Of a DNA stretch of 58,148 bases, positions 5,063-38,757 are shown piece after piece. The DNA is taken from NCBI GenBank assembly GCA_020630975.1, contig JAHDID010000040.1:1-58148 (forward strand), written 5' to 3'. Within the stretch, counting starts at the first letter, position 1. Every line of letters begins with the position of its first letter. This stretch comes from Verrucomicrobiota bacterium (GTDB lineage Bacteria > Verrucomicrobiota > Verrucomicrobiia > Verrucomicrobiales > DEV007). The translations under genes and the position numbers were made by a program. The notes beneath the pieces were generated by a model. That model was not told where the DNA came from, made no database searches, and saw only the letters and a program-made list of their open reading frames with translations.

Positions 5063-5629
5063 ATGTCTGTAGTGAAGGATACGAATCCAAGCAATAATAG
5101 GGAGGAAACCGAGGCTGCGCACCTCGAGTTCGTCCAGCTGCTCACCGAGCACCAGACGGCTCTGCGCCTATACGTGCACTCGCTGCTACCCGGCGATGCC
5201 AATGCCGCCGACGTGGCCCAACAGGCCAACACCGCCATCTGGAAAAAGCGTGATAATTTCGAGCTCGGCACCAATTTCAAAGCCTGGATCTACAGCATCG
5301 CCCGCTACGAAGTGCTCAACTATCGCAAACAGCAGGCCCGCGACTCACGCCTAGTCTTCGGCGATGAGCTGATCGAAATCTTTTCTGAAGAGCTGCCAAA
5401 ACTTTCCGACGACATGGATGAACGCCAGTCGGCTCTGCGAGGCTGTCTGGAAAAACTCAAAACTGCAGAGCGAGAGCTGATCACCCACCGCTACTTCACC
5501 GATATGCCACTGGACGACTACGCCGCCCAGACTGGCCGGAGCCCGGGAGGACTGAAGGTCTCTCTACACCGTATCCGCACCAAGCTACAATCCTGCATCG
5601 AGCACAAACTCGCCCAATCCGCCAGATGA
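5063..5629 (+). CDS. ECF-type RNA polymerase sigma factor
   Basis: A 188-residue sigma-70 family protein. Region 2 spans about residues 25-95, with the core-binding and promoter-melting helices ending FKAWIYSIARYEVLNYRKQ. Region 4 spans about 120-180, with its helix-turn-helix including YAAQTGRSPGGLKVSLHRIRTKL. Regions 1.1 and 3 are absent, as in ECF factors. The sequence resembles the Rhodopirellula/Verrucomicrobium ECF subgroup. The TGA stop overlaps the ATG of the FecR-domain gene (ATGA at 5626-5629), so the two are probably translationally coupled as sigma factor and membrane partner. Confidence 0.9.
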   Translation: MSVVKDTNPSNNREETEAAHLEFVQLLTEHQTALRLYVHSLLPGDANAADVAQQANTAIWKKRDNFELGTNFKAWIYSIARYEVLNYRKQQARDSRLVFGDELIEIFSEELPKLSDDMDERQSALRGCLEKLKTAERELITHRYFTDMPLDDYAAQTGRSPGGLKVSLHRIRTKLQSCIEHKLAQSAR

Positions 5630-7185
5630 TGACTCGCCAATCGCTACTAGAACTCATCGACGCGACACTAGACGGAGCAATCAGCGAGGCTGATTTTCTC
5701 CGACTAGAGGCCCAGCTACACGTCGATGCAGAGGCTCGCCAGCTGTACTACGACCGGCTCAAACTACACACCGCTCTCGGCGAGGAAAAAGCGGCCAGCC
5801 TATCACCCCAGCCTGCCGCCCGCCCCACTCGTCGGCTACTCCCCCTGACAGGCAGCTTGCTCTTCGGTGGGCTGACCATCCTCCTACTGGCGACCGCTAT
5901 CTGGCTCGCCAAAGCCCCAGAGCCTGCTCTACCTGAGATGGCTAGCAGCGAACCCACCGCCGAGGGATTTGGCGTGGTGATCGACTCGATCGATGCGCAC
6001 TGGGCCAGCACCAGCTACAGCCACGGCCAACTGATCGCCGGAGAGAAACTCTCCCTGCAGTCTGGTATCGCCCACATCGAGCTTTTCAGCGGAGTCGCAC
6101 TGGTCCTCGAGGGTGGAGCCGATTTTCAGCTGCACTCAGATATGGAGATGACTCTCCACACTGGCAGACTGCGCGCTACGGTACCACCACCGGCACGAGG
6201 CTTTCGGGTGCGCACTAGCACGGGCGATGTGGTCGATCTCGGTACCGAGTTTGCCATCGATGCCAGAGCCGAGCGAGCCGATGTACACGTACTAGATGGC
6301 GAGGTAGAGTGGCACCCCACCACTGCCGATACCCATCAGCTACGCGATGGCCAGTCACTCGGCTGGACTAGAGATGGCGTGGTGCAGCCGACCTCTGTAG
6401 CCAGCGAATTCACTGGGCTTGAGCACCTCTCCGCAGAGCGCAGCCAGCGCCAGCAGCGCTGGCAGGAGTATAGCCAGCAGCAGCTCTGCAAAGACTCACG
6501 CCTGCTCGCTTACTTCCCGATAGCCGACCGGCCATCGCACCGGCGCCAGCTGCGCGACACCTCTGCTGCAGGCCGCCACGGCACCATCGTCCGAGCTCAG
6601 CCAGCCACCGATCGCTGGGGCGGCGACCAGGCGCTATCCTTTAGCCCGACAGGTAGCCGAGTCCGCATGGAGGTACCCGGTTCGCACAGCGCCCTCACAC
6701 TTAGCTGCTGGGTACGCATCGATAGCCTCGACCGTTGGTACAATTCTCTATTCCTCACCGATGGTCACGAGCTGGGCGAGCCCCACTGGCAGATCATGGA
6801 CGATGGGCGACTATTCTTTTCAGTAAAGCGCCGCACAGCCACCAAAGATCTGAGCGACAAACAAATCGCCTACTCCCCACCGATCTGGACTCCCGCGCTC
6901 AGCGGCCAGTGGCAGCACATCGCCACCAGCTACGATAGCCAGACCGGCCAGATCACTCACTACCGCGATGGCCTACCCATCAGCCAAGAGCAGCTCACCG
7001 ATGACTACATCGTCGATCAGATCAATATCGGCACCGCCTCCATCGGCAACTGGAGCGACCCCATGCGCGCCGATCCCCACTTCGCCGTGCGCAATCTCAA
7101 TGGCGCTATCGATGATTTTGCTCTCTACAGCACAGCTCTCACGAGCGAAGAGATCAAACAGATCTACGAACTAGGCCGCCCGTAG
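5626..7185 (+). CDS. FecR-domain membrane protein with C-terminal LamG domain
   Basis: A 519-residue single-span protein. Residues 1-69 are the cytoplasmic part, expected to bind the sigma factor. A transmembrane helix runs from about 71 to 95. A FecR-type domain (about 155-235) holds the motif DVVDLGTEFAIDA. A LamG/concanavalin-like domain (about 320-515) closes the protein and includes LTLSCWVRIDSL and AIDDFALYSTALTSEEI. FecR proteins transmit a cell-surface signal to an ECF factor; the LamG domain would be the outside sensing or carbohydrate-binding part. It overlaps the sigma gene by four bases. This fusion recurs in planctomycetes and verrucomicrobia. The signal is unknown. Confidence 0.85.
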   Translation: MMTRQSLLELIDATLDGAISEADFLRLEAQLHVDAEARQLYYDRLKLHTALGEEKAASLSPQPAARPTRRLLPLTGSLLFGGLTILLLATAIWLAKAPEPALPEMASSEPTAEGFGVVIDSIDAHWASTSYSHGQLIAGEKLSLQSGIAHIELFSGVALVLEGGADFQLHSDMEMTLHTGRLRATVPPPARGFRVRTSTGDVVDLGTEFAIDARAERADVHVLDGEVEWHPTTADTHQLRDGQSLGWTRDGVVQPTSVASEFTGLEHLSAERSQRQQRWQEYSQQQLCKDSRLLAYFPIADRPSHRRQLRDTSAAGRHGTIVRAQPATDRWGGDQALSFSPTGSRVRMEVPGSHSALTLSCWVRIDSLDRWYNSLFLTDGHELGEPHWQIMDDGRLFFSVKRRTATKDLSDKQIAYSPPIWTPALSGQWQHIATSYDSQTGQITHYRDGLPISQEQLTDDYIVDQINIGTASIGNWSDPMRADPHFAVRNLNGAIDDFALYSTALTSEEIKQIYELGRP

Positions 7186-7284: not shown

Positions 7285-7313
7285 TTGCAGATCTGCGGAT
7301 CATAAGTTATGAT
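7285..7313 (+). promoter_or_regulatory. Candidate sigma-70 promoter for the 103-residue protein
   Basis: TTGCAG (7285-7290) and TATGAT (7308-7313) are separated by exactly 17 bases in an AT-rich leader. The -10 matches five of six consensus positions, the -35 only three. Transcription would start near 7320, about 22 bases before ATG 7342. A 12-base palindrome, AATAATATTATT (7243-7254), lies upstream. Confidence 0.45.
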
Positions 7314-7341
7314 ATTTATTATAAATACAAAAATTAAGACT

Positions 7342-7653
7342 ATGAGCCTATCCGATTTCCAAAACGACGCCGTCCAGAATGCCGCAGAAGTACTAGGTGG
7401 CAGAGTCAACTTCACCACAGAGATCCGAAACCTTTTCGGCGAAACCGCAGCCAATGAGTGGAAGCACTACCGCAAGCACACGCTCGGCATGTCTACCCAC
7501 GACAAATGGAGCGGCGCAGAGACTTACTCCTGGAAGAAAGTCTGGGCGTTCAACGAGTTCGCCAAGGCCACCGCTGACAAGTACCCCGGCCTACTCGACA
7601 AGGTCAACTTTCCTCACCGCAATGAGGAGGCCTACCAAAACATTTTTAGCTAA
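7342..7653 (+). CDS. Conserved-looking small protein, unknown function
   Basis: A 103-residue soluble protein starting MSLSDFQNDAVQNAAEVLGG. The frame opens earlier (7309), but those codons overlap the candidate promoter, and the sequence becomes protein-like only at 7342. It is rich in aromatic and charged residues, with several WK/KW pairs (EWKHYRKH, SWKKVWAF). There is no signal peptide or membrane segment. I do not recognise the family. It has its own AT-rich promoter and a hairpin downstream, so it is a single-gene unit between the FecR gene and the SecA-like module. Confidence 0.6.
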   Translation: MSLSDFQNDAVQNAAEVLGGRVNFTTEIRNLFGETAANEWKHYRKHTLGMSTHDKWSGAETYSWKKVWAFNEFAKATADKYPGLLDKVNFPHRNEEAYQNIFS

Positions 7654-7918: not shown

Positions 7919-9871
7919 GTGAGTTCTCCCCGATTCAGTTCCCAGTATGACCGAGGTGCCTACTTCCAGAGTGTCGTAAAAGGCAAGTGGAATGCTGCAG
8001 TCAATCCTAAGCAATACCGCTCCGACGAAGCTCGGCTCAAGCGGATCAATGAGCTAGAGCCAACCTACCAAGCTCTGTCCGACCAAGAGATCCGCGACCT
8101 GGTCACCAGCTGGAAGGCCCAGGTGAAAAGCGGCGAGGCAGAGATCTACGATTTCGTAGAGGAGGGCTTTGCTCTACTCCGCGAGGCCACGCGCCGAGCG
8201 CTGGGCATGTTTCACTACGACTCACAGATCCTCAGCGGGCTGGCTCTGGTGCGGGGCGGAGTGGCAGAGATGGCTACGGGCGAGGGCAAAACTCTAGCGG
8301 TCAGTCTGCCGTGTTTTATCTTCTGCCTAGCCGGTAAAGGCGTACACGCGGTGACGGTAAACAGCTATCTCGCCGAGCGTGATTACGAGTTTTCCAAACC
8401 CATTTTCGACTTCCTCGGCATCACCATAGCCTTTCTACCCGAGGGCGGCAGTACCGAGGAAAAGCGCGAAGCCTATGCCCAGGAGATCACCTACGGGGTG
8501 GGTTACGAGTTCGGCTTCGACTACATGCGCGATCAGCTGGCCATCATGCGCCACCCATCCAGTGGACCCGGAGAGGAACTGCGCCTAGCCATCCTGCGTC
8601 GGGAGAAACCAGAGCCCGATACCTGCCAGCGAGGCCTGGCCTACGCCATCATCGACGAGGTGGACAGTGTGCTAATCGACGAGGCAGGCAGCCCACTACT
8701 GATTTCCGAGGCATCGCAGAGCGGCTTCAGCGATGAGCCATTTCGCGTGGCGATGGAGCAGATCGAGGAGCTCATCGAAGACGAGCACTACAGTCTCGAC
8801 ATGCAAAAACGCAAAGTCGAGCTGACCTCGGCCGGGCGAAAAGCCATCTTTCGCGAAAATGGCCGCATCCCCTGGAACTCGCTGCGCCGCCCGTGGGAGA
8901 CCTATATCCTGAATGCGCTGCGTGCCAAATACCTGTTCCTCGCCGACGAGCAATACGTGGTGGAGGACGACAAGGTGATGATCGTCGATGAGTTCACTGG
9001 GCGCCGATTCGAGGATCGCAGCTGGCGAGAGGGCCAGCACCAGGCAGTCGAGGCCAAAGAAGGCGTCGAGATCCGTCCCGAGAGCGATTCCGCCGCCAGT
9101 ATCACCCGACAGCGATTTTACGCCCTGTATGATACCATCTGCGGTCTCACAGGCACCGGTGCCGAGAGCGCGGGAGAATTTTGGCGATTCTTCAAAATGC
9201 CCGTCACCGGCATCCCCTTGCACCGCCCCTCGCAGCGCAACGTGCTCGATGAGCGTGTCTTCATCGATCACGAGTCGATGGACGGTGCCATCATCGCCGC
9301 GATCAAAGACTCCATCAAGCGCGGCCAGCCGACTCTAGTCGGCACACGTACGATCCGCGACAGCGAGCGCCTGTCTCGCCAGCTCAAAGAACACAAGGTC
9401 GAGCACCTAGTGCTCACCGCCAAACAGGATGCAGAGGAAGAAGAGATCGTCCACAGTATGGGCGAGTGCGGCAAAGTGCTCATAGCCACCAATATGGCCG
9501 GTCGCGGCACCCACATCGGCCTTTCCGATGAAGCTAAAGACGCCGGCGGCCTGCATGTGATCCAGGTCGAGCGAAACGACTCCGCCCGGATCGATCGCCA
9601 GCTGATCGGCCGTGGTGCTCGTCAGGGTCAGCCAGGCTCAGCCCAGTCATTCGTGAGCGCCGATGACTATATGCTCACCACCTACGCGCCCGAGGTGCAG
9701 GACCAACTGCGCCGCACCAAAGCCGACGATAAAGGCGAGCTCCCAGGGCGACTCACAGCGGTCTTTGACCGCGTGCAAGCCGAGGTCGAAAAATCTCGCT
9801 ACGAGATGCGAGTACGCATGGCCGAGCACGATCTATGGCAGGAAGACACCAAAGAATCTCTTTCCACCTAA
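7919..9871 (+). CDS. SecA-like ATPase lacking most of the C-terminal region
   Basis: A 650-residue relative of the preprotein translocase motor. Walker A is ATGEGKT (about 118-124). Walker B and neighbours read DEVDSVLIDEAGSPLLIS (from about 243), where SecA normally has EARTPL. The preprotein cross-linking domain follows (VVEDDKVMIVDEFTGR). The second motor domain has ATNMAGRGT and the arginine-finger motif GRGARQGQPGS. After SADDYML only about 60 residues remain: part of the long scaffold helix (DRVQAEVEKSRYEMR) is present, but the helical wing, the two-helix finger and the zinc-binding tail are missing. Start is GTG 7919; no other usable start is near. It is followed at 29 bases by a periplasmic adaptor gene. 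It may drive a specialised export step, but the partner is unknown. Confidence 0.85.
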   Translation: MSSPRFSSQYDRGAYFQSVVKGKWNAAVNPKQYRSDEARLKRINELEPTYQALSDQEIRDLVTSWKAQVKSGEAEIYDFVEEGFALLREATRRALGMFHYDSQILSGLALVRGGVAEMATGEGKTLAVSLPCFIFCLAGKGVHAVTVNSYLAERDYEFSKPIFDFLGITIAFLPEGGSTEEKREAYAQEITYGVGYEFGFDYMRDQLAIMRHPSSGPGEELRLAILRREKPEPDTCQRGLAYAIIDEVDSVLIDEAGSPLLISEASQSGFSDEPFRVAMEQIEELIEDEHYSLDMQKRKVELTSAGRKAIFRENGRIPWNSLRRPWETYILNALRAKYLFLADEQYVVEDDKVMIVDEFTGRRFEDRSWREGQHQAVEAKEGVEIRPESDSAASITRQRFYALYDTICGLTGTGAESAGEFWRFFKMPVTGIPLHRPSQRNVLDERVFIDHESMDGAIIAAIKDSIKRGQPTLVGTRTIRDSERLSRQLKEHKVEHLVLTAKQDAEEEEIVHSMGECGKVLIATNMAGRGTHIGLSDEAKDAGGLHVIQVERNDSARIDRQLIGRGARQGQPGSAQSFVSADDYMLTTYAPEVQDQLRRTKADDKGELPGRLTAVFDRVQAEVEKSRYEMRVRMAEHDLWQEDTKESLST

Positions 9872-9900
9872 CAGGAACACAGCCGAAACTAACAAACATT

Positions 9901-10767
9901 ATGAAAGCGAGGACCCTTCTTTTACTTCTCACACTCTGTCTCACGACAGCTCAGGCTGCGATGGCTCAGGGCGACTACCGCAAGGTGCTAGGCTACCTAG
10001 AGCCCTACCGAAATATCAATATGACCACCGTGGAGGCAGGCATCATCTCCGAGATCTATGTGGCCGAGGGCAGCTATGTCGAGCAGGGTGCTCCTGTGAT
10101 CTCGCTAGATCACTCCGTACTCAAAGCCCAGCTCCGCGTCGCAGAGATCCAGGCCAATAGTAATGCCAACATCGCCGTCGCTACCGCTGACTACACTATC
10201 GCTAACGATAAGTACAACAAGCTGCTAGAAAAATCCCGCTCGACCACACAGATGGAGCGCCAGCGTGCAGCAGCCGAAGTGAAAAAGGCGGAAGCTCGCA
10301 TGCAAATGGCCAAAGAAGAACAAGCCATAGCCACCCACCGTATGGCCGAGATACAGGCCCAGATCGAGCGACGCATCCTGCGCAGCCCGATCAATGGTAT
10401 CGTACTGGAAGTGAATCGCGATGTCGCTGAGTCGGCCTCGGTATCTGAGAAGCCTGGCGAAAAAGAAGCCGCCCTAGTCAGAGTCGCTCAGCTCGATAAA
10501 CTACTCCTAGTCGTGCATCTACCAGATGATAGCATCGGCAGTCTCAAGACTGGCGATAGCATCCAGGTGATGGTGCTAAAGGAAAACAGTCTGATCGCAG
10601 ATCGCGACGGAGCCATCATCTCCGGTACTATCGATTTTATGTCTCCCGATGTCGATCCCTCTAGCGAGACTCGCCGGACCAAGATCGTGATCGACAATAA
10701 CAGCCAGCAGTATCGCAGTGGCTCTCACGCCTATGCTCTACTACCCAAAGTGGGCAGACAATACTAA
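9901..10767 (+). CDS. Periplasmic adaptor (HlyD/RND membrane-fusion type)
   Basis: A 288-residue exported protein. The frame is open from 9835, but ATG 9901 gives a clean signal peptide, MKARTLLLLLTLCLTTAQAAMAQ. The first half of a lipoyl-like domain follows (about 35-75, including EAGIISEIYVAEGSYVEQGAPV), then a helical hairpin rich in Ala, Glu and Gln (about 80-165), then the returning lipoyl half (ILRSPINGIVLEVNRDVAE) and a beta-barrel part. Such adaptors connect an inner-membrane pump to an outer-membrane channel. No ABC, RND or MFS pump or TolC-like gene lies beside it; its upstream neighbour is the SecA-like ATPase. Confidence 0.82.
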   Translation: MKARTLLLLLTLCLTTAQAAMAQGDYRKVLGYLEPYRNINMTTVEAGIISEIYVAEGSYVEQGAPVISLDHSVLKAQLRVAEIQANSNANIAVATADYTIANDKYNKLLEKSRSTTQMERQRAAAEVKKAEARMQMAKEEQAIATHRMAEIQAQIERRILRSPINGIVLEVNRDVAESASVSEKPGEKEAALVRVAQLDKLLLVVHLPDDSIGSLKTGDSIQVMVLKENSLIADRDGAIISGTIDFMSPDVDPSSETRRTKIVIDNNSQQYRSGSHAYALLPKVGRQY

Positions 10768-10827
10768 CCGCCACTGTCGTGGTAATAGACCTTTCCCAAC
10801 AACAACAACAAACCAAAGAACAAATAA

Positions 10828-11178
10828 ATGAGCCAATTCATTTCCACCACTAATGGCAAGATCATCAATGTCTCGAGCATTGCTTTCCTCACCTCTCGAA
10901 ACAATCCCAAATCAATCCGCCGTGGTAAGTCTAAAGATGGCGGTGCGATGGTCAGCTACCGTGTCAAAGGTGTCGTCCCTGTGCAGCTCGTCGTAGCCTT
11001 TGCCGCAGCTGCAGAGAGCAAAAATGGCATGATCCCTCTCTCTCTCGTACTCGAGGGCGATGAGGCCATGGACTTCCTCGATCAGCTGGCTGGGCACGGA
11101 GTCGATGTGGCATCGATCAAGGCCAAAGTCTCTCCTGCGGCTCCAGAGGAAGACGAAGAAGAGGCTGCAGAGAGCTAG
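10828..11178 (+). CDS. Small acidic-tailed protein, unknown function
   Basis: A 116-residue soluble protein. Residues 1-95 look folded, with beta-strand-like segments (KIINVSSIAFLTS, VVPVQLVVAF, MIPLSLVLEG) and a helix DEAMDFLDQLAGHG. The last 17 residues are nearly all Glu, Asp, Pro and Ala. There is no signal peptide. It lies 60 bases behind the adaptor gene, and its leader contains a run of AAC units (10797-10811) with no Shine-Dalgarno motif, an unstructured leader that could favour initiation. Family not recognised. Co-direction with the SecA-like and adaptor genes suggests one transcript. Confidence 0.65.
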   Translation: MSQFISTTNGKIINVSSIAFLTSRNNPKSIRRGKSKDGGAMVSYRVKGVVPVQLVVAFAAAAESKNGMIPLSLVLEGDEAMDFLDQLAGHGVDVASIKAKVSPAAPEEDEEEAAES

Positions 11179-25281: not shown

Positions 25282-28200
25282 CTACAAACTCACACTCAAT
25301 CGCATAAATTCTTTATCCAACAGAGCAGGCTTTCTGATGGTCACCCTAGTCCGATTATTGCCCATGTCCTGAGATGATAGCTCTGCATGATCCGGTGCGT
25401 AAACTGTCCAAGGCCCGAGTGAGTCGTCGGCGGTTTCGAGCGTAATTGTGACATCCGACGCGCTAGTGCTCACCTGGTATATCACCTCAAAAAATAGGGC
25501 TCCACCATCCTCAACCACTGCGATTGACTCAAAGACATCGCCGTCTCCGACCAGCGGGTCTCTCCCGTAGGCATATTCTTCAAGATTGGACAATCCATCG
25601 CCATCGGAATCGCCCTCAGGACTGATATCATCGCCAAACCTCCAGGCCGTCTGACTGACCCAATTGCCGAAACCGGTGGTAGCCGCTACATTGATGCGGA
25701 TACTGGCCCGATCCGTAGCACCTGCACTATCTTCGACCTCCACGACGACATCATAAAAATCAGGTCCAGAAACCGATAGCGATTGAGCCAAACTCAGTTC
25801 ACCCGAACTGGAAACCGCAAACAGCTCAGAGTCTTCGCCCTGGACTATCGAGTAAGCCAGCCCACCGGCACCGGCTGAAGATAAAGTCGGACTGCCTATC
25901 ACACTATCTGCCGCTGCTGGCCGACTGAGTGAAAAAGTCCCATCATTGATGTCTGGAGCATTGCGCAACTGATACACAGAAGCCACTTCCGTATCGCTGA
26001 GTGGGCGCGACCACATCATAAACTCGTCTAGATCACCATCAAACAGCCAGGCTCCACCTCGGTTTCGGCCTAGGTTCAATCGATTAAAGGCAGTCATCCC
26101 TGTAACCACATCTTCTGAAATTTTGACCCCATCGTAGTAGAGAATCGCATGGGTGCCGTCGTATACTAGAGCGATGTGCTTCCAATCCAGACTGACTTGG
26201 CCAAAGTTGTAGTCCGATCCTTTGGCTAGCTGATAATTACCAGGATTCCCTCCATTGGTCTGTATTTGGAATCCGGTACTACCATTGTAGTTGCTAAAGA
26301 CACTTTCGTTATTGGTGGTATTGACCGAATCGATTTTGGCCCAGAGCGCTATGGTGTAGGCCGGTATGTTGGTCGTCTCGGAGTAGAGGATGTGGTCGTC
26401 GACACCATCGAATGTCACGCCGCCACCGCGCGCGCCATTGCCCCAGGTAGGGCCATTGGTGAGTGTGCCATGGCGCTCGTTGCCCGAGGAATCGACGGCA
26501 GTCGTGCCAGCGCCCTCCTCCAGTCGCCACCAGGCGTAGAGGTCGCTGTAGAGCGCCCCTGGTGTCACATTGGGATCCATGGGGTCGACTAGCAGGGCGG
26601 CCTCTAGCGCATCTTTGTAGCCATCTCGGTCGGTATCCTCTAGAGTCGCATCGGTGATGGTGATCGTAATGGTACCACTGGTCGCCAGATCGCCGCTATC
26701 GACGACACTGACTAGTAGCTGATGGCTAGTGGCAGTCTCGTAGTCTAGGTAGGCTGTCGTGGAGATCGTGCCGCTATCATCTATCGCAAATAGGCTAGCA
26801 CCACTGCCGCCAGTGATCGATACCGAGTAAATCTCCCCAGGCGTGTGGTCCTGGATGCCGATATGTCCGATAATCGTACCAATATCGATCGCCTCCGAGG
26901 CAGATAACGAAGTCTGGGTAATACTAGGAGTCGAGTCGAGGATATCGATCGTAGCCGTAGCGGTAGTACTGAGTGGAGTGCTGGCATCGTCTGTCGCCTC
27001 TACCTCTAGCTGATACTGATTACCCGCCTCTACTGCTAGTGAACCGACGATGGTAATCTGTCCGCTAGCCGAATCGATGGCAAATAGGCCAGCATCGTTT
27101 CCCGAGAGGATCTGGTAGCTCAGAGTATCGCCGCTATCAGGATCGATTGCTGCCATGGCACCGACAGTGCCGCCGACCGCCGCCTGCTGTGTGGTAGAGA
27201 ATAACTGATCGCCCATGAGTGGTGCGCCATTGCTACTGCCATCGCCGCTGGTGCCACCCGCATTGCTATTATCTCCGATATCTTCGTCGGATATTGCATG
27301 ATTGTAGGCGGCAAAGGCGTAGATACCTGTATCGGCATCATCGCGTAGCGACGAGTAGCCGAGCGTCACTCCAGCTACTGAGAAATTTGGGATGTTGCCT
27401 ATATTGCCCACGTGGGTGCCATTCACATACATCCTAGTCTGATTATTTACCGAGTCCTGCACAAACACCAAATGGGTCAGCGCGCCGTATGGCGAAGCCA
27501 CAGACTGACCATCGACCGGGCTAAAGGTGTAGTCATTCCAGCCATAGCGAGTCACGCCTAGGACATTTCGATTATTCCACTGCTCAAAACGCAGTGACCA
27601 GCCATTCCCATCGAGTAAATGAGTGGCCGACTGCCCCAGGTCCTCCGCATCGACAAAAAACTCAAAGGTAGCATCACCCTTGAGGGCAGAGAGGTCCACT
27701 GTGCGAGTCTGATTACCAGGAAGCGGATCGAGAGTATAAAATAGTGGCGGATTCTCTTCCAGCTGGCGCTTCCAGTTTTCAAATCGCGAATCGACTTGTG
27801 GGTGTAGTCGTAGTAAAGCCTCTTCCGAATTGCTCAGACCATCATTATCGGGATCGTCGGCACCACTGAAGCTCAGGTTGCCGAGATAGGTCACCTCCCA
27901 CCAGTCGTCGAGACCATCGGCGTCGAGATCGGGGTAGCGCTCTAGCTGCTGCCCGTCGATCAGTGCCGGAGTAGCGGCACCTGGCAGGGTCCATGCTACC
28001 GAGACGTGATCGCCACCACCACCCTCGGCATGAAGCACCTCATAGTAGTAGCGCTGCCCGGCCTGTAGGGCGATGGCAGCACTGCTATTTCGAGAAAAGT
28101 CCTGATAGCCACCATACCCTACTAGCTCGACCTGCTTGCTGGCATTCGCAGCTGAGTCGTCCGTACTCAGGTGAAATTCGCTACTATCATCGGACGAAAT

Positions 28201-31200
28201 GTGGAAATGGTACTCACCAGTCATCGGAGCCACCAACCAGCCGCGTACTCGCCGTCCGAAGTTACTTTTGCCGACATCGCCAAAGTCCAAGGCGTTGACC
28301 TCTTGATAACGAGCTAGATCAGGTGCGTCAGGGTATTTGGCATTGCCTGTCAGATCAGTCACTCCACCCGAGGCGATTCCATCGAACTGCTCTTCGTATA
28401 GAATACCAGATCCCTCGACATCGATGGTGATGATGGTATCAGTCGACTTAGCGGGAGATCCGGAATCTGTAACACGCACTTGTAGAAGGTATTGGCTATT
28501 GCGAGCTTTACTGAGTGGCTTTTCCAGAGTCAGCTCACCAGTGTCTGCATTAATACTCCAGTCACTGCCCGCGTCGCCAGAGAGGATCTGCCAAGTATAA
28601 GTTTCGTTGGACTCGTTTTGACTGTTTAGCACAGGCTGAAAGAGAGGGTAGCCAGGTAGCGCGGCTTCTCCGGCGTAAAACCGCTGGGCATCGATTCCCG
28701 GAGGGCGGTTTTCATCTTGGATGACGATCCGTAGCGAAAATGCCACAGGCTGATTCACCCCATCGCTGACATGGACAGGGATCAGTGACAGGCCATTACC
28801 TTCATTGATCACGGGGAGGTCGCCAGTGAGAGTTATCTTACCATCGCTCGCCACTGCGGTGTAGCCGTTGTTGTAATTGTTTTGCACAGTGAAACTGAGC
28901 ACATCGTGATCTGGATCTGATATGATGGACGCGAGATCGGCGATCTGTGTACCACTAGCCGCCAACTCCAGCACTGGTATATCGACCACTTGCGGAGCTG
29001 TAGGCGGCTGATTTTCGGTAGTGATGGTGAAAGTCAGGTCGGTGGACTTACCATCGCCGTCGGTAGCCCGAACGGTAACCGTAGACGAGCCACTAACACC
29101 GTTGGCAGTGACTAAAGAAAAATTAGCCGGGTCGGCGATTGTGCCGGTCGGATCACTGGCAAACAGCGAACTGTCGCTAACACCGAGGATAGAGAAGGTC
29201 AATCCGCTATCTACTGTCTCGCCATCGTCGAAAGCGGTGAAAAGATCAACCGAGTGCGTACCACCGGTGTAAGTATAGATATCCTCGATACCATTTCCCA
29301 CAGGTGCAGTCGATGCCCCATGGTAATCGATCGTGAAATCGCGAGCGGTCTTGTTGAATCCATCGTCGACGACTAGTCGCAGGAGATAGCTACCTGAGGT
29401 AGGAAAGGTCACTTCAGTATCTAAAGCTGTCGCATCGGCAAAACCGGCACTGCCAGGGCCAGACACTTGCCTCCACTGGTAAGTGAGCGCCGCAGGCTGC
29501 GAGCCATAGGCATCTAGCTCGAGCAGCACTAGGCTATTAGTCGCACCAGGAGCCACTTCGATGCGCAGCTGCTTGACCATAATACCAGCAGGTATCGCAT
29601 CGAAATGGTGAAAATCGGTATTATCCAGTGTGGTCTGCCAGGTCGGATTACCACCGGCATCGAGCGCGGTCAACGTGCGGTTGGCAAAAGAGCTCTGGAA
29701 CAGCATGGTGACAAACTGTAGCTCGCGCTCTTCTGGTAGGTCTAGTAGCCACCAGTCGTCGGCTGCAGATTCATCGGTGGCAGAGCGATAGCGAGACACG
29801 GCGTAGCTGATACCGTCGATCGCTTTCCAGGCATCGTAGTCGGTAGAGTCGAGCAGAGTCGTGGACTGACTAGGAGTGGCGCCTATCGTCAGATCTGCCA
29901 TATCGGCATGGCGACCGATCGCGCGAACTTGCACGACCTGAAAGCGCGAAGCCTGGGCATCCTTAGTCAGGCGTAGCTTGCGCACACCCGGCCCACCGCC
30001 CCCCTTGTGGTAGGGCACCCGCACACGGTGGCTATACACATCGACATTCTGCGGCTGACTAGTCTGTAGCACGGTATCGTCATCGGCTAAAAACTCTAAA
30101 GTGTAGCCGAGCATCGCCGACTCGAATATCAAAATCAAGTCGACCCAAGCTAGCTCACGCTCGCCACCAAAGTCCAACTCCCAGACCAGCTCCGAACCCA
30201 CACCCACACTGCTGTAGGATGGTGAGGCATGCGGGCGGCTCAGCCGATGCGCATCGTAGCCAGCGTCGCCGACTACCCAACTAGCCGTACCCAGTGGTGC
30301 TAGATCGACCAGATTGGCAAAGCCATCGTCGTCCGCCACGATCCCAAATCGACTGGTATCGACTCGACTATCATTCCAGCCTGCCAGAGCTGTCTGACTG
30401 GCATCGATCCATGGTGCTAGCTCACTACCACCCTCGTAGGGCGCTCCGATATCCTCTACCATCACCCATCGCTCGATGGTTTTGGTGTGTCCATTATCAG
30501 TCGCCTCTAGGCGTAGTCGGTACCGGCCAGGTAGAGAAAAGCGGGCCAGCGCCTGCGCACTTGTGGCATTCTCCAGCGTCACTTGGCTACCGATTGGTTT
30601 ATTGACTACCGACCAGCTCAGAGTCGAAGTGCCGGAAAACTCCACCCCGCTAGCAGGTAGCTGTTGGGTCTCTAGTAGCAGAGACATATCGCGGCGCAGA
30701 ATGGTGTAGTCGCGTGCTGGGCTAGTCACCTCGGCTATACCTACTAGTATCCGCGATGTGCCGCTATACACAGTACCGTCGGAGTCCTCTGCTGTGTAGG
30801 AAATATCTGCATAGCCACTCGCCCCTGCAGCTGGAGTAAAGATCAGAAACCCCGTAGGCGACATGCCCCAGGTACCATCGGGATAGACACGGTGCGAGCG
30901 CTCGATATCTAGCGTGCCCATGCTGGGGGTATCGAGAGTCGCTGATAGTAGGCGATACTCGCGAGCGTAGTCAGTGATCTTATCGGTAGCGGTATCCAAG
31001 CTCACCGCTCCGAGTCGACTGATGTTGTAGTCGAGGCGCAGGTGGCCAGCGACTTCGTCATTGCCGAGCGGATTGAAGCGCAGCCTCTTGCTACCATCAG
31101 TGGAGCGCAGGTCATCGATTGCACTGCGGCCCGCCCCCGAGTAGTTTACCGTCAGGGTGTAGGGATTGCCCTTTACCGAGCCGGTCAGCACCTCGCTGCC

Positions 31201-33267
31201 CGTGGCATCGGGGTGCGCACGCAGTAGCATGCGCCAGCCGTTGATGTTTTGCGATGCCATCGTCGGGTAGTCGAAAGAATTGATCGTCCCAGAAAACCAA
31301 ATCCAGCGATCCTCGCCTGGTGCCAGAGTCACGCTAGTCGGATCGGACTCTGCATTACCTACCGTCACAGTGACGGGAGCACGAGTCAGCCAGCCGCGGC
31401 CATTATTACCCACGCTGCCGCGCAGGGTGTAGTTAAAAAAAGCGCCACCCTCGAAGCCGCTGGCAGGGGTGAAACGCAGCTGCCGCCCGCTATCGATGAT
31501 CTCTACTGTGCCAGCCCCATTGGGCACGACTCGACCGACCTCCTCGATGAGTAGGTCTTCATTGTAGAAATAACTATAGGGAGTGCGGCGGTCGTCATTG
31601 CTCAGTGGGTCGAATTCCACTGGCGTATCGATAGCTGTGGTAAAGGCATCCTTATTCGCATAGGCCATCTCCACCGGATTTCGCAGGTGAAAGCCCTTGG
31701 TATCATTTCCATGACCGACATTGTCCGATAGTCCATCTAGCGTCTCAGCGGTATCGACGATTCCCGCACGGAAGATCTGCTTTTTCATCAGCCGCTGGTA
31801 TAGCGTGTGCGCCGAGGTGCCCGTGCTATTGCCCCAGGTCCCCCAAAAATGCTGGGGACCTCCGGCAGGCCCCATCAGACCATTGCCATTGGTGTGGCCG
31901 ATACCCAGGATGTGCCCCAGCTCGTGAGCGATACCGACGACCCAAGAGGAGATATTGAAAAAACTACCCGACGCGTAGCCGCCACCACCCCAGCCGTAGA
32001 TCACCCCATGGGCGAGGATCTTGTCGTAGCCACCTCGATTGTTTTTCACATCGCCGATGCCGATCTCGCCGGTGGTATCATTGGTGCGCACCACTAGCTC
32101 TGCGACCTGCATCTCGACACCTGCATTGCGCTCGTAGATCTCATTTACCGATTCGAGCGAGAGCAGCAGGCGACAGAGCATGGAGGAAATATCTTGCTCA
32201 GTCGGATTGTCTCCATCGGTCAGCAGCCCAGGACCAGAGTCACACACATAGGTGAGCTGCTGCAGGCTGGCATGGTACTTTTCACCAAAAGGTGGCGGGT
32301 AGGGTAGAAAGTCTTGATTGTTGCGCGAGGCCTCGGAGCCGGGATTGGTCTCGATAGCCATCAGCTCTACCCCATCGAGAGGCTGCCACTCATTATATTT
32401 TTCCTGCATCGCAGGATCGACCGCGGCCTCGCTTTTGGCGACAAATTCCTCAAATGCCTCACCAAACAAATCGTCGCTCGTCGGTCGCAGATCGGTATCG
32501 CTCGCCTGAGCCTGGCATTGACCAAAGTCCGTTTGCATCATCTCGCGCGGCTCGTAGCGCATCTCCATCGCCGAGGTCTCGGGATTGCGGCGCAGCAGGA
32601 TGCGATCGTGATCATCATTACTCAGCGCCATCACCATCTGATCGCCGATGATGGATAGATTCGATACTGTGGCGTCGAATCCAGCGAGCAGTTGCTCTCC
32701 CGTCAGCCCTGATTCAGGTATGGCAGAATCGGCTGCGGTGTCGGTAGCAGTCGTGATCTCACTCTGTCCTGCCCGGCTCGGATCGGGCGCTACCGCTGCC
32801 ACGCTACCGGCGAAGACATGCACATCGCGATGGGGATCGAGCAGCACAGAGCCATCTCGCAGGCGGATAGCAGCCTGATCGGCAAACACACGCCGTGGGC
32901 TCAACGATAGGCGCAGTGCCGATCGCGATCCGATGGATAGGTCCACTGGCCTTCCCTCACGAAAAGCATCCACTATCCTAGCGTTGCTATCGCGGGCAAT
33001 CGATGTGACACCGCTAGGCCGTAGCGAAGCAAACTCCGATAACTGAGACTTCAGCTCTCCAGCACCTTCGAAACCCAACTCTTCAGAATTTGCCAACTCA
33101 ACTGAAGAAGGCTCCCCTCCCTCTGAAAAATGACCGAATACAGGCGGAACTCTGAGGCCACGCCTTTTCGAGTCTTCTCCCACTCTAGGAAAAAGAATAA
33201 ACAAAAGAACAAGGGCTAGCAGCAGCAGGACAGAGACCTGTGGGATTAGACTGCGAAGACGAAACAT
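25282..33267 (-). CDS. Giant surface metzincin with LamG, PA14, discoidin and cadherin-like repeats
   Basis: A 2661-residue exported protein. A signal anchor spans about 8-27. A metzincin protease domain (about 320-500) has zinc motif HELGHILGIGH (448-458). Ig/cadherin-like segments (about 565-930) follow. Two discoidin-like domains come next (about 940-1113 and 1125-1255), then a PKD-like segment (1260-1310), cadherin-like repeats (1325-1600) and a PA14 domain (1620-1778). Thrombospondin type 3 calcium repeats lie at about 1780-1825, 2209-2235 and 2550-2580. LamG-like domains lie at about 1830-1990 and 2238-2430, with cadherin-like repeats between. The C-terminal 80 residues are beta-rich, with no PEP-CTERM or LPXTG anchor. 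Likely role: surface adhesion and protein or glycan breakdown. Confidence 0.85.
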   Translation of the reverse strand: MFRLRSLIPQVSVLLLLALVLLFILFPRVGEDSKRRGLRVPPVFGHFSEGGEPSSVELANSEELGFEGAGELKSQLSEFASLRPSGVTSIARDSNARIVDAFREGRPVDLSIGSRSALRLSLSPRRVFADQAAIRLRDGSVLLDPHRDVHVFAGSVAAVAPDPSRAGQSEITTATDTAADSAIPESGLTGEQLLAGFDATVSNLSIIGDQMVMALSNDDHDRILLRRNPETSAMEMRYEPREMMQTDFGQCQAQASDTDLRPTSDDLFGEAFEEFVAKSEAAVDPAMQEKYNEWQPLDGVELMAIETNPGSEASRNNQDFLPYPPPFGEKYHASLQQLTYVCDSGPGLLTDGDNPTEQDISSMLCRLLLSLESVNEIYERNAGVEMQVAELVVRTNDTTGEIGIGDVKNNRGGYDKILAHGVIYGWGGGGYASGSFFNISSWVVGIAHELGHILGIGHTNGNGLMGPAGGPQHFWGTWGNSTGTSAHTLYQRLMKKQIFRAGIVDTAETLDGLSDNVGHGNDTKGFHLRNPVEMAYANKDAFTTAIDTPVEFDPLSNDDRRTPYSYFYNEDLLIEEVGRVVPNGAGTVEIIDSGRQLRFTPASGFEGGAFFNYTLRGSVGNNGRGWLTRAPVTVTVGNAESDPTSVTLAPGEDRWIWFSGTINSFDYPTMASQNINGWRMLLRAHPDATGSEVLTGSVKGNPYTLTVNYSGAGRSAIDDLRSTDGSKRLRFNPLGNDEVAGHLRLDYNISRLGAVSLDTATDKITDYAREYRLLSATLDTPSMGTLDIERSHRVYPDGTWGMSPTGFLIFTPAAGASGYADISYTAEDSDGTVYSGTSRILVGIAEVTSPARDYTILRRDMSLLLETQQLPASGVEFSGTSTLSWSVVNKPIGSQVTLENATSAQALARFSLPGRYRLRLEATDNGHTKTIERWVMVEDIGAPYEGGSELAPWIDASQTALAGWNDSRVDTSRFGIVADDDGFANLVDLAPLGTASWVVGDAGYDAHRLSRPHASPSYSSVGVGSELVWELDFGGERELAWVDLILIFESAMLGYTLEFLADDDTVLQTSQPQNVDVYSHRVRVPYHKGGGGPGVRKLRLTKDAQASRFQVVQVRAIGRHADMADLTIGATPSQSTTLLDSTDYDAWKAIDGISYAVSRYRSATDESAADDWWLLDLPEERELQFVTMLFQSSFANRTLTALDAGGNPTWQTTLDNTDFHHFDAIPAGIMVKQLRIEVAPGATNSLVLLELDAYGSQPAALTYQWRQVSGPGSAGFADATALDTEVTFPTSGSYLLRLVVDDGFNKTARDFTIDYHGASTAPVGNGIEDIYTYTGGTHSVDLFTAFDDGETVDSGLTFSILGVSDSSLFASDPTGTIADPANFSLVTANGVSGSSTVTVRATDGDGKSTDLTFTITTENQPPTAPQVVDIPVLELAASGTQIADLASIISDPDHDVLSFTVQNNYNNGYTAVASDGKITLTGDLPVINEGNGLSLIPVHVSDGVNQPVAFSLRIVIQDENRPPGIDAQRFYAGEAALPGYPLFQPVLNSQNESNETYTWQILSGDAGSDWSINADTGELTLEKPLSKARNSQYLLQVRVTDSGSPAKSTDTIITIDVEGSGILYEEQFDGIASGGVTDLTGNAKYPDAPDLARYQEVNALDFGDVGKSNFGRRVRGWLVAPMTGEYHFHISSDDSSEFHLSTDDSAANASKQVELVGYGGYQDFSRNSSAAIALQAGQRYYYEVLHAEGGGGDHVSVAWTLPGAATPALIDGQQLERYPDLDADGLDDWWEVTYLGNLSFSGADDPDNDGLSNSEEALLRLHPQVDSRFENWKRQLEENPPLFYTLDPLPGNQTRTVDLSALKGDATFEFFVDAEDLGQSATHLLDGNGWSLRFEQWNNRNVLGVTRYGWNDYTFSPVDGQSVASPYGALTHLVFVQDSVNNQTRMYVNGTHVGNIGNIPNFSVAGVTLGYSSLRDDADTGIYAFAAYNHAISDEDIGDNSNAGGTSGDGSSNGAPLMGDQLFSTTQQAAVGGTVGAMAAIDPDSGDTLSYQILSGNDAGLFAIDSASGQITIVGSLAVEAGNQYQLEVEATDDASTPLSTTATATIDILDSTPSITQTSLSASEAIDIGTIIGHIGIQDHTPGEIYSVSITGGSGASLFAIDDSGTISTTAYLDYETATSHQLLVSVVDSGDLATSGTITITITDATLEDTDRDGYKDALEAALLVDPMDPNVTPGALYSDLYAWWRLEEGAGTTAVDSSGNERHGTLTNGPTWGNGARGGGVTFDGVDDHILYSETTNIPAYTIALWAKIDSVNTTNNESVFSNYNGSTGFQIQTNGGNPGNYQLAKGSDYNFGQVSLDWKHIALVYDGTHAILYYDGVKISEDVVTGMTAFNRLNLGRNRGGAWLFDGDLDEFMMWSRPLSDTEVASVYQLRNAPDINDGTFSLSRPAAADSVIGSPTLSSAGAGGLAYSIVQGEDSELFAVSSSGELSLAQSLSVSGPDFYDVVVEVEDSAGATDRASIRINVAATTGFGNWVSQTAWRFGDDISPEGDSDGDGLSNLEEYAYGRDPLVGDGDVFESIAVVEDGGALFFEVIYQVSTSASDVTITLETADDSLGPWTVYAPDHAELSSQDMGNNRTRVTIRKPALLDKEFMRLSVSL

Positions 33268-34938: not shown

Positions 34939-37900
34939 CTACTTAGCAAACATCTCGTGCTCCTCATCCCCACCACTAAGGATATAGGCCAGCAGATCCA
35001 GCACTTCGTCCTCTTTCAGCATCATCAGCAGGTTCGGCGGCATGGGAGATACCTTGGACACTTCGATACTCTCTACCTCAGTACGGTCGATGTTAGCCCG
35101 CTGGTTGGGATTGGTCAGGTCGGTATTCAATACCACGTTGTTACCATTTAGATTCACGACTACACCACTGACGGTCGAGCCATCTTTCTTGGTGACGACG
35201 ATCGGGGCAAACTGCTCGTTGATCTCCTTGCTCGGGTGAATGATCGAGTCGAGTAAATCGTGTGGGCTATAGCGGCCGCCAGCTCCAGTGAGGTCCGGGC
35301 CATTCATTCCGCCCGCATTACCGAAGCGGTGACAAGCATAACAGGCTGCTGCGGTAAACATCTGGCGACCAGTATCGTAGTCGCGCCCCGTCATGCCATC
35401 GCCCTGGGCTGCGGCGCTGAGCTCCTCGAGAGTCCACATCTTAGGCGTGCGTCCAGCGAAGATCTCGCCGAGGTTTTCGATGGCGCTTTTGATCACTGGC
35501 TTTTTGGCGATGAGCTCGGCATGAGTCGCCTTTTCCTCATCGGTATAGGTAGCAAGGCTGTCATTGCGGATGAATTCGATAAACTTGGTAAAACTAGCTC
35601 CACCCTGGTAGTTGGCCGCCTTGAGAAACCAATTCAACTGAGCCTCGCGCAGCTCAGGAGTCCAGCCAGCTTTCAGCATGCGTAGGCTGCGAGCATACTC
35701 CATCTGTGGCTCCTGGCTAGCGGCCTCGGCGATCAGCGCCATGCCTTTGGCTGCAGTATCGGGGTGCTGCAGGTAGACTAGCGTCTCGCAGAGTAGCCAG
35801 TTCAGCTCGAATGTATCAGCAGGAAATGCAGCATTGAGCGTATCACCTATCTGGGTGAGCAGCGACTCGCTAGGATCGCCAAACCGGTGTAGCGCGATCT
35901 GTACCAAACGCACGTAGGCGAGCTGCATCTCGTCGCTGAGCTGAGCCCAATCGATCGCAGCACAAGCAGTAAAGATACGATCGCGATAGGTAGTATCTGC
36001 CTCCTCACCCTCAGCACGCTGAGTCTCGCAGGTGCCGGTGACCAGTGTCAGACCGATGAGAGCCTCGATCTGCTTGGTGGCATCGCTCTCAGCCAGCGCG
36101 CGGGCAGCCCACTGATCGACAGGCTGGTGCTGCAGCGCCACGCGCGCGGCAAAACGGATGAAACGATCGCTGTGGCTAAGGTGTGGCCAGACCGCATCGA
36201 CTGCAGCCGCGTCCTGAACACCGTGATATTTCTCGATCTCGTGACGCAGGTCGCGCAATGGATTTGGCAACGATGTGGCATTGACCGGCTCGGTCGACTC
36301 GTCTCCGGCATAGGTGAGACGGTACAAACCCGACTGAACCGCACGCCCCCCGATAGCGAAGTACATCGCGCCATCCGCAGGATGAATGAGCGCATCAGTC
36401 ACAGGCAGTGGTGCACCACTGATGAAGTCTTCTTTTACCCCGGTGTAGGAGGCGCCATCCTCCTCGAGGTGCACGGCGTAGACCTTGCCCCAGCTCCAGT
36501 CGAATATATAGAAAGCTTTTTGGTATTTCGCGGGCCACTTGGCTCCATAGCCAAATGTCGTGCCTGTCGGAGAGCCTGGACCGATATTCACTGCAGCCGG
36601 TAGATTATCGGCATAAAATTCAGGATACTTGCCCGCTCCGTTTCGCCAGCCATACTCAGAGCCACTGACCACGTGATTCACACGAGTCGGACGATACCAA
36701 GGAGTATTGAAATCGTACTCCATATCAGCATCGTAGGTGAATAGCTCGCCATCAGCATTGAGCGAGGCGTCGTAGATATTTCTATAGCCCGAGGAGAAAG
36801 CCTCGAACGTTTTGCCATCTGGAGACACTTTGTAGATGATACCGCCGGGAGCTAGGCGGTGGCGATTGTGCCCTCGACCATCTGGCATGCGCGGTAGTAG
36901 CAGATCGTCGCCCCATACCTGCGAGACTGGCGAGGAGTCGACGATCTCAGTGGGCTCAGTATTGTTACCAGTGATCAAGTAGAGACCGGTACCATCTTCG
37001 GTAGGTAGCACCGCATGCACTCCGTGGTCGCCTTTTGCCTCCATAGCCCTCAGCAGCTCCACTTTGTCCAGCTGATCATCACCATCGGTGTCGGAGATTT
37101 TATATAGACCGCTATCGATCTCCTGCTGGTAGTCATTCACACCCACATAGAGCGCATCGAATGCCCAGACCATGCCATTGATGGCGCGAATATCGACAGG
37201 CACCCTCTCGACATCGCTCTCCTGTAGCTGCTCACCTGCGGCAGGTGGAGTGAAGCGGTAGAGCACGCCATACTGATCGCTAGCATAGATGCGACCCTGC
37301 GGGTCGTCGCACAGTGCTACCCATGAGCCCTGTGTCTCACCCGGCACCGAGTAGACCAGCTCTATCTCAAATCCCTCAGGCACTCGGATCCGCTCGATCG
37401 GTGTGGCTTTGTTTTCCCCGACTCTAGCGCCCACGGCCGTGCTACGCTTGCTCTTTTTTTTAACAGGAGCTTTGGCCGGTGCAGGGGGCGCTTTTGCCTG
37501 CCCCTTAGCTTTGCCTTTCGCTTTGGACTTGCCCTTTGTAGCCGGCTTCTTCTTCTCGATCAGCTGGGCATCGGATGGGACATTGGCATCCTCAAATGAA
37601 GTCACGCCGCCATCGGGCAAAATCTTTAGCTCCACGGACTGGATATGTACCTCCATCGGCTCGCCTCTATGGATCTGGATTCCGATATGCCCAGCTAGCG
37701 CGCGATTTGCCTCATCGTAGTCACTCAGCTCGACGGTCATCTGCCCATCGAGCTTGTGGGTGATGTGGTTGCCCTGAGCAATGATCGTGTACTCGTGCCA
37801 CTCGGTGATGTCGGTACCGATCGGATCGCGCTCGGCGACCAGCCACTTGCCGCCCTGCTTGTCGGTGATCACACTCTGGCCATTCTGCACCATGATGCCT

Positions 37901-38310
37901 CGCCCCTTTTCATGATAAACCATCGAAGTGAAGGGAGGATTTGGGTGGATATCGCACTGGTAGCCACCTACCACCCACTCACCAATCTCGGGCAGCAGCT
38001 TGCTGCGGTATTGGACCCCAGAGTTGTTTTTGCCCAGCACCTTGATTTTCGCTCGCAGCTCGAAGTTTTTCACCTCGCCACCCTGCCAGAGGAGAAATTC
38101 ATTGTACTTCAGGTCTTCTTTCGACTCGGTCTTGCCGACGATCACCCCATCCTTCACCGACCACAGCTTGGGATTGTAGTCCCAGCCAGTCAGGTCGGTA
38201 CCATTGAAAAGCTGCTGAAAGCCTGACTTATCCTGTGCACCCAGAGGCAGCACGACAAGCAGGCACGAGGATAAAAACAAGAATACGCGGGATCTCATAG
38301 GCATCATCAT
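34939..38310 (-). CDS. DUF1080 / beta-propeller / cytochrome c fusion (PVC type)
   Basis: A 1123-residue exported protein with four parts. A signal peptide (about 5-25, RSRVFLFLSSCLLVVLPLGA) leads into a DUF1080 (3-keto-disaccharide hydrolase) domain (about 28-230, starting FQQLFNGTDLTGWD). A Lys/Ala/Pro-rich linker (about 250-295) follows. The PVC-type propeller domain begins RIRVPEGFEIELVYSVPGE (about 305-690). After a helical segment comes a class I cytochrome c with haem motif C990-YAC-H994 and a likely axial Met in SPMPPNLLMML. Such fusions are typical of planctomycetes and verrucomicrobia and are linked to periplasmic oxidation of sugars. The start could be any of four Met codons (38310-38298). 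Confidence 0.85.
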   Translation of the reverse strand: MMMPMRSRVFLFLSSCLLVVLPLGAQDKSGFQQLFNGTDLTGWDYNPKLWSVKDGVIVGKTESKEDLKYNEFLLWQGGEVKNFELRAKIKVLGKNNSGVQYRSKLLPEIGEWVVGGYQCDIHPNPPFTSMVYHEKGRGIMVQNGQSVITDKQGGKWLVAERDPIGTDITEWHEYTIIAQGNHITHKLDGQMTVELSDYDEANRALAGHIGIQIHRGEPMEVHIQSVELKILPDGGVTSFEDANVPSDAQLIEKKKPATKGKSKAKGKAKGQAKAPPAPAKAPVKKKSKRSTAVGARVGENKATPIERIRVPEGFEIELVYSVPGETQGSWVALCDDPQGRIYASDQYGVLYRFTPPAAGEQLQESDVERVPVDIRAINGMVWAFDALYVGVNDYQQEIDSGLYKISDTDGDDQLDKVELLRAMEAKGDHGVHAVLPTEDGTGLYLITGNNTEPTEIVDSSPVSQVWGDDLLLPRMPDGRGHNRHRLAPGGIIYKVSPDGKTFEAFSSGYRNIYDASLNADGELFTYDADMEYDFNTPWYRPTRVNHVVSGSEYGWRNGAGKYPEFYADNLPAAVNIGPGSPTGTTFGYGAKWPAKYQKAFYIFDWSWGKVYAVHLEEDGASYTGVKEDFISGAPLPVTDALIHPADGAMYFAIGGRAVQSGLYRLTYAGDESTEPVNATSLPNPLRDLRHEIEKYHGVQDAAAVDAVWPHLSHSDRFIRFAARVALQHQPVDQWAARALAESDATKQIEALIGLTLVTGTCETQRAEGEEADTTYRDRIFTACAAIDWAQLSDEMQLAYVRLVQIALHRFGDPSESLLTQIGDTLNAAFPADTFELNWLLCETLVYLQHPDTAAKGMALIAEAASQEPQMEYARSLRMLKAGWTPELREAQLNWFLKAANYQGGASFTKFIEFIRNDSLATYTDEEKATHAELIAKKPVIKSAIENLGEIFAGRTPKMWTLEELSAAAQGDGMTGRDYDTGRQMFTAAACYACHRFGNAGGMNGPDLTGAGGRYSPHDLLDSIIHPSKEINEQFAPIVVTKKDGSTVSGVVVNLNGNNVVLNTDLTNPNQRANIDRTEVESIEVSKVSPMPPNLLMMLKEDEVLDLLAYILSGGDEEHEMFAK

Positions 38311-38456
38311 TTGGGGGAGAATGGCTCCGATCCCGGAAAATTACCAGAGACCGACTGACCGTAAATGTGGCAAAAACAAAACGGCAGATACTGGAATCGA
38401 CTCAGCTAGCCCGAACTTGAGAGAATGTGATTGTTGCGCTAGCTTCTACCAATCAG

Positions 38457-38651
38457 ATGGACAGTGAATCTGAAAGAAATGACCTGCGGGAGCCTGTGAA
38501 AAAAGTTCTAGGTAAGCCCTTGTCCACCAATAAAAGCCCTCTTGAGCGATTAGCCGCTCTACAGAGGAATGCCGACGCTATCCTAGGTCGCAGTTGGCGG
38601 GGAAAAGACGATGGAACCCTCATTCGAAAAGTTGTTGGTAAGCCTTTCTAA
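38457..38651 (+). CDS. Small hypothetical protein upstream of nucleotidyltransferase remnant
   Basis: A 64-residue, charged product starting MDSESERNDLREPVKKVLGK; the frame is also open from 38427. It has an internal near-repeat, KKVLGKPL and RKVVGKPF. It overlaps the nucleotidyltransferase fragment by 41 bases in another frame, an arrangement like small partner genes of MNT/AbiEii-type nucleotidyltransferases. Whether it is expressed is doubtful if its partner is broken. Confidence 0.4.
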   Translation: MDSESERNDLREPVKKVLGKPLSTNKSPLERLAALQRNADAILGRSWRGKDDGTLIRKVVGKPF

Positions 38652-38733
38652 GGCAGAGATCGATTTTGTGCTGGTCGGCGGACTAGTCATCAGACCGAAT
38701 CGATATCTCCGCGATGCAGCAACGCATCGATAA
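38611..38733 (+). pseudogene. Truncated nucleotidyltransferase (MNT/AbiEii-like) remnant
   Basis: A 40-codon frame reads MEPSFEKLLVSLSKAEIDFVL and continues VGGLVI, the start of the small nucleotidyltransferase family where VLVGG is normally followed within about ten residues by a His-Gly and the catalytic DxD. Here it breaks after GGLVI and ends at TAA 38733 with no DxD. Another frame stays open to 38782, so an internal deletion and frame change are likely. It lies against the 3' end of the DUF1552 gene on the other strand. Confidence 0.5.
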
Positions 38734-38757
38734 TCCCAATACTTTCGATTCAGCATA

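Follow-up and report, generated by a model that had tools for sequence, protein, structure and literature searches.

The genes described here lie in a stretch of 58,148 nucleotides from a Verrucomicrobiota bacterium (assembly GCA_020630975.1, contig JAHDID010000040.1, positions 1 to 58,148 of the forward strand), referred to in full as the window. Positions 7,919 to 11,178 encode a truncated SecA-like ATPase (the motor), a HlyD-type adaptor and a small protein. The features of this segment are listed below, with the basis of each assignment in brackets.

7919..9871, + strand: SecA-like ATPase, 650 aa, GTG start (Pfam, NCBIfam and solved-structure matches, alignment, tree)
8270..8293, + strand: Walker A, MATGEGKT, residues 118-125 (alignment to E. 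coli SecA)
8654..8689, + strand: Walker B region, DEVDSVLIDEAG, residues 246-257 (alignment to E. coli SecA)
8741..9052, + strand: preprotein cross-linking domain (PPXD), residues 275-378 (Pfam SecA_PP_bind, E = 1.2e-24)
9599..9631, + strand: arginine-finger segment, QLIGRGARQGQ, residues 561-571 (alignment to E. coli SecA)
9901..10767, + strand: HlyD/CusB-type periplasmic adaptor, open frame from 9835 (Pfam; sequence; adjoins the SecA-like gene in relatives)
10828..11178, + strand: small protein, 116 aa, lineage-specific (alignment with five relatives)

The motor is clearly related to SecA. It matches the Pfam families SecA_DEAD (E = 3.4e-89), P-loop_SecA (2e-42) and SecA_PP_bind (1.2e-24), and solved structures of SecA with a best E value of 1.5e-120. 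Alignment with E. coli SecA locates the segments that we take to be Walker A, Walker B and the arginine finger, and also a conserved TNMAGRGTHIG; a reading of the DNA made from the sequence alone (the sequence-only reading) had claimed that the first three are kept together with the preprotein cross-linking domain, and the alignment and Pfam matches agree. In the pairwise alignment the motor ends at E. coli SecA residue 661, with 40 of its residues aligned to E. coli 621-672 and none to 673-901, a region in which 212 residues of this genome's full-length SecA can be aligned. Using domain borders of E. coli SecA that we assume, the wing, two-helix finger and C-tail are thus absent, as had also been claimed. 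The wing and two-helix finger form the part of SecA that engages SecY. No Pfam family for the wing or scaffold matches the motor at E <= 0.01; the family for this part is SecA_SW, according to passages of Kamneva, Poudel and Ward 2015 (PMC4452313). An AlphaFold2 model of the motor, calculated with eight sequences, was discarded (mean pLDDT 51.5).

The frame of the adaptor from 9835 matches HlyD_D23 (E = 1.9e-13) and HlyD_3 (9.7e-10). To judge from the sequence the likelier start is the ATG at 9901, which is followed by a signal-peptide-like stretch. The sequence-only reading described the adaptor as an orphan with no pump or channel gene. None adjoins it, and candidates are present elsewhere in the genome. 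The nearest homologue of the OEP (TolC-type) channel, on contig C81, shares 64% identity with the OEP adjoining the SecA-like gene in relative G004, and has the same two neighbours as in relatives G004, G006 and G007; in this genome the SecA-HlyD-small protein group therefore lies apart from the OEP. A run of HlyD, GAF-HlyD and M50-HlyD genes lies on C39, and a further GAF-HlyD and M50-HlyD pair on C16. The source genome thus has every component type, in scattered form, and the adaptor is not a true orphan. A second truncated SecA-like paralogue, 59% identical to the window motor, lies on C54 with no HlyD in the stretch examined, and the full-length SecA, for which a search elsewhere in the genome had been suggested, is found on C130. 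The window carries a split copy of the kind of locus described by Kamneva et al. as secondary SecA_DEAD, with its other parts on other contigs. An assignment as an M50-free 'compact' variant was rejected once the GAF-HlyD/M50-HlyD modules on the other contigs came to light.

The gene order around the motor is conserved. Among 36 genomes (the source genome and its relatives; matches at E <= 1e-30) a truncated SecA-like gene is present in 18 at E <= 1e-80. Relatives from the same genus have the order OEP - SecA-like - HlyD, and at four of these loci the small protein follows; the three-gene order proposed from the sequence holds in its SecA-like - HlyD part and extends to the small protein in those four. 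In a second arrangement, seen for example in locus L050, the order is OEP - HlyD - GAF-HlyD - M50-HlyD - SecA-like - giant protein, and in G012 a single contig carries in a row GAF-HlyD, M50-HlyD, a giant protein with an N-terminal LEPR-XLL motif, OEP, SecA-like and HlyD. Within 8 kb of 53 SecA-like loci from whole genomes, the window included, HlyD is found at 36, OEP at 33, M50-HlyD at 30 and GAF-HlyD at 27. At least one of these four lies within that distance at 48 of the 53, compared with 0 of 21 full-length SecA loci. The partner models derive from the window plus 20 more of the 53 loci, so the count is circular for those, and the other 32 loci are independent. All four partners are missing at L034 (the source-genome paralogue), L049, L084, L090 and L093; such absence is weak evidence because contig ends cut many loci. 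L068 (Ignavibacteriaceae, 1018-aa frame) was excluded from the SecA-like counts since it seems to be an ordinary SecA.

The separation of the window genes from the OEP could also mean that they are a decaying, displaced remnant without function. The window copy does lie apart from its closest OEP, which sits between the neighbours of the intact G004/G006/G007 locus, and a paralogue exists at C54. Yet the three open frames are intact and the ATPase motifs conserved, it is the C54 paralogue and not the window copy that lacks HlyD (in the stretch examined), and the genome has all component types along with 18 LEPR-XLL matches. We consider decay very improbable.

Giant proteins encoded beside SecA-like loci start without an obvious signal peptide and contain the LEPR-XLL motif; the giant of locus L156 has 5349 aa. 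Eight of the nine giant N-termini scanned exceed the curated cut-off (17 bits) for LEPR-XLL domain proteins (NCBIfam NF012209); the remaining one matches weakly. The 18 matches in the source genome (E <= 0.05) are all encoded outside the window, which thus does not itself contain the likely cargo. Seventeen are in frames of 2179-9621 aa, and one is in a stop-broken frame of 64 aa. One giant, of 4157 aa, has cadherin-like and bacterial Ig domains. Contig C144 (L142, L143) has three LEPR-XLL matches about 9.6, 25.5 and 38.5 kb along, all on the + strand. A strongly hydrophobic N-terminal stretch (mean hydropathy >= 1.8 over 15 residues) occurs in 0 of 37 LEPR-XLL giants, these being the matches in the stretches around the loci; the same threshold is reached by 22 of 37 OEP and 34 of 42 HlyD frames. 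The LEPR-XLL match begins at a median of 25 residues past the chosen start (35 giants), where starts were picked by rule and some are perhaps off. The window also encodes a cadherin/LamG/PA14 protein of 2661 aa (25282-33267, - strand) whose N terminus is hydrophobic and whose start lacks LEPR-XLL; these features make it a probable Sec client, in contrast to the LEPR-XLL giants.

The distribution of the giants largely follows that of the SecA-like gene. In 387 Verrucomicrobiota genomes (SecA-like at E <= 1e-80, LEPR-XLL at E <= 0.01, M50-HlyD at E <= 1e-60) the SecA-like gene is present in 26, LEPR-XLL in 29 and both in 23. LEPR-XLL is therefore found in 23 of the 26 genomes with the SecA-like gene versus 6 of the 361 without (Fisher p = 1.8e-28, descent ignored). 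The six LEPR-only genomes have their matches in open frames of 138-636 aa, and if a frame of at least 1000 aa is demanded, a cut set post hoc, 23 LEPR-XLL genomes are left, 23/23 of them with the SecA-like gene. The 26 SecA-like genomes comprise 12 families, and the 23 pairs 11 families. M50-HlyD occurs in 47 genomes: 26/26 with the SecA-like gene versus 21/361 without. The control, the unrelated sorting enzyme exosortase, is present in 255 of the 387 (22/26 versus 233/361, p = 0.05, descent ignored). The source genome has no exosortase match at E <= 1e-15. Within the genus of the window (23 genomes, some incomplete) M50-HlyD is present in 16/16 genomes with the SecA-like gene versus 0/7 without, and LEPR-XLL in 13/16 versus 0/7, descent again being ignored. 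The link between the SecA-like locus and the LEPR-XLL giants as cargo is well supported.

The association extends to plasmids of Alphaproteobacteria. There are 125 plasmid records that match the SecA-like query; among the 40 best, many are ordinary SecA, and eight alphaproteobacterial records of secondary appearance form the sample (the similar-looking H4, H7, H13 and H19 lie outside it). In all eight GAF-HlyD, M50-HlyD and a large open frame lie beside the motor, and LEPR-XLL is matched in every one of these records, by a frame 8199 to 12957 aa long; two of the eight records themselves annotate LEPR-XLL. In Alisedimentitalea the giant as annotated starts without the motif and the match straddles the annotated start, which was probably set too late. 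Four of the six annotated plasmid records have a DUF3467 gene beside the giant or GAF-HlyD gene (L180 7421-7741, L182 6386-6691, L183 7557-7838 and L184 7425-7769). In Pseudosulfitobacter the gene for a SapC family protein separates M50-HlyD from the SecA-like gene (L179 10962-11783), and Alisedimentitalea has another beside the giant (L188 1158-1301).

In a tree of 85 rows a single branch, with support 100, divides all 58 SecA-like rows, including the window and the eight plasmid rows, from 21 Verrucomicrobiota SecA plus six reference SecA/SecA2 rows. The tree was made by a quick method and has some long branches. The window lies in a clade of 19 members, comprising loci of the same genus, L069, which comes from a different family in the same order, and L070 and L071; in the last two an intermediate order is found, with GAF-HlyD - M50-HlyD - SecA-like - HlyD adjoining. 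The tree takes up the suggestion of the sequence-only reading that the motor be compared with SecA1 and SecA2. It bears on another possible function, in which the motor would be an accessory SecA2 delivering special preproteins to SecYEG, and HlyD, M50 and OEP would act later or on something else. Like SecA2, the motor is a second SecA homologue beside a housekeeping SecA, and it retains the PPXD and both nucleotide-binding parts; in passages of Kamneva et al. (PMC4452313) actinobacterial SecA2 is the neighbour of the secondary SecA_DEAD proteins. However, in the tree, which has no actinobacterial SecA2, the SecA-like rows are kept apart from the one Lactobacillus SecA2, and that SecA2 aligns 154 residues beyond E. 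coli residue 672, whereas nothing in the motor aligns past 661, so that the wing and two-helix finger are missing. Moreover, no secY family occurs among the neighbouring genes scanned, a scan that was not exhaustive, and the giants examined have no Sec-type signal. A SecA2 role is therefore unlikely.

We propose instead that the window genes are part of a dispersed type I-like exporter in which the SecA-like ATPase replaces the ABC transporter and the cargo is the LEPR-XLL giants; we put the probability of this at roughly 0.65. The proposal builds on the sequence relationships, gene order, co-occurrence and M50 motifs, and on the lack of a Sec-type signal in the giants examined. In outline the locus corresponds to one already published. 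According to passages of PMC4452313, secondary SecA_DEAD loci contain HlyD, M50 and GAF-HlyD proteins and would form a type I-like exporter with SecA_DEAD as ATPase and M50 as candidate pore; the partners may sit elsewhere in the genome, the broader role is called unknown and no cargo is named. The shared features are a truncated SecA_DEAD without wing and scaffold beside HlyD-domain proteins, M50-HlyD and GAF-HlyD in the system, and OEP in some loci. The window differs in being split over contigs, HlyD adjoining the motor and the other two lying on other contigs. Its clade has OEP and HlyD flanking the SecA-like gene with GAF-HlyD/M50-HlyD usually apart, and a cargo class is proposed here. 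The new energiser-adaptor pairing suggested by the sequence-only reading was therefore anticipated in 2015, and the passages of PMC3482391 have no bearing on it. The broader suggestion of a dedicated export machine is supported. Loss of linkage in relatives, or absence of a second, full-length SecA, had been named as arguing against a separate system; the linkage is conserved and the full-length SecA is present. What is new is the likely cargo, giants with an N-terminal LEPR-XLL and no Sec signal peptide. LEPR is not mentioned in the text of PMC4452313 through Results. Searches for LEPR-XLL led to PMC10868602, which has a passage on a Vibrio giant protein, and to PMC9611531. In the literature searched, which omits preprints and most subscription papers, no exporter is named for LEPR-XLL proteins and the link from the locus to them was not found.

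Compared with type I secretion (ABC, HlyD, TolC), the system would share one-step export and has in common the HlyD-type adaptor and TolC/OEP channel; it differs in having a SecA-like motor for the ABC protein and a candidate leader that is N-terminal. The neighbouring genes that were scanned include no ABC transporter; no search for one was made in the rest of the genome. Residues 21-414 of one M50-HlyD protein match the daptide-type intramembrane metalloprotease (NCBIfam NF041824) at 1.8e-53, but with 182 bits against a cut-off of 300, and differ in the fused HlyD part and the linkage to giants. Each of the 42 aligned M50 proteins keeps HExxH and the downstream Asp motif, which makes protease activity plausible. 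M50-HlyD is annotated as PqqD-family in some relatives.

These features suggest how the machine may work. The M50-HlyD membrane protein would be the site at which the hydrophilic LEPR-XLL leader is recognised in the cytoplasm, and the motor would push the unfolded chain through an inner-membrane and periplasmic passage that M50-HlyD and GAF-HlyD may form or gate. The window HlyD would couple to the TolC/OEP channel, and the leader may be cut near LLSA by the HExxH site of M50, all the parts presumably acting as one complex. LEPR-XLL would then be a cleavable N-terminal address tag, on giants of thousands to over ten thousand residues, for a one-step, two-membrane pathway composed of a SecA-derived motor without its SecY-engaging parts, an M50 protease-HlyD and a TolC-type channel, and shared by Verrucomicrobiota and Alphaproteobacteria. 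For this wider scheme we judge the odds to be about even. The motor is of soluble type with no membrane part of its own and the giants are very long, and it might thus serve as a cytoplasmic unfoldase or holdase for giants that leave by another exporter. Its neighbours are envelope proteins at the frequencies given above, and we think this role improbable, although no search for an ABC-type exporter was made.

Several observations weigh against the proposed exporter. The SecA-like gene occurs with no LEPR-XLL match in phylum genomes G117, G219 and G322 and genus genomes G002, G006 and G016, and the reverse holds in relatives G026, G032 and G033. A LEPR-XLL start lies within 20 kb on the same contig at just 20 of 53 SecA-like places. 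Of the 21 genomes with an M50-HlyD match and no SecA-like gene, 20 are without LEPR-XLL, and the Fisher tests leave descent uncorrected. The window contig has neither a LEPR-XLL match nor an M50-HlyD gene, the M50 proteins of the source genome form a distant branch (27-30% identity), and we infer that the window HlyD acts together with the OEP on C81 and the modules on C39 or C16. OEP models match 0 of the 8 plasmid loci, though one is annotated TolC. Lastly, export of the giants by the SecA-like machine is a proposal drawn from sequences and gene patterns.

The small protein has the length and acidic tail ascribed to it from the sequence, but the tail is missing from all five relatives aligned. 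It is present in eight of the 36 genomes, each of which has the SecA-like gene. Its gene lies beside HlyD in five (the source genome, G004, G006, G007 and G019) and on contigs other than that of HlyD in three. Its predicted fold (mean pLDDT 78.9) has no PDB match at E <= 0.001, and no relationship to the plasmid DUF3467 proteins is detected (hhalign probability 0.1%). We treat it as a lineage-specific accessory with no assigned role. Just upstream of the motor (5063-7185, + strand) lie genes for an ECF sigma factor of the Rhodopirellula/Verrucomicrobium family and then a FecR-LamG protein, with a 114-aa frame between the latter and the motor (7309-7653, + strand) that has no Pfam or NCBIfam match. 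Further along (34939-42401, - strand) are a 3-keto-disaccharide hydrolase/cytochrome c protein and a planctomycete-type PSD/PSCyt protein.

Linking the SecA-like locus and the LEPR-XLL giants gives each a testable function. If the proposal is true, these bacteria would have a route for secreting giant proteins that lack signal peptides, in which SecA has been re-used outside the Sec translocon.

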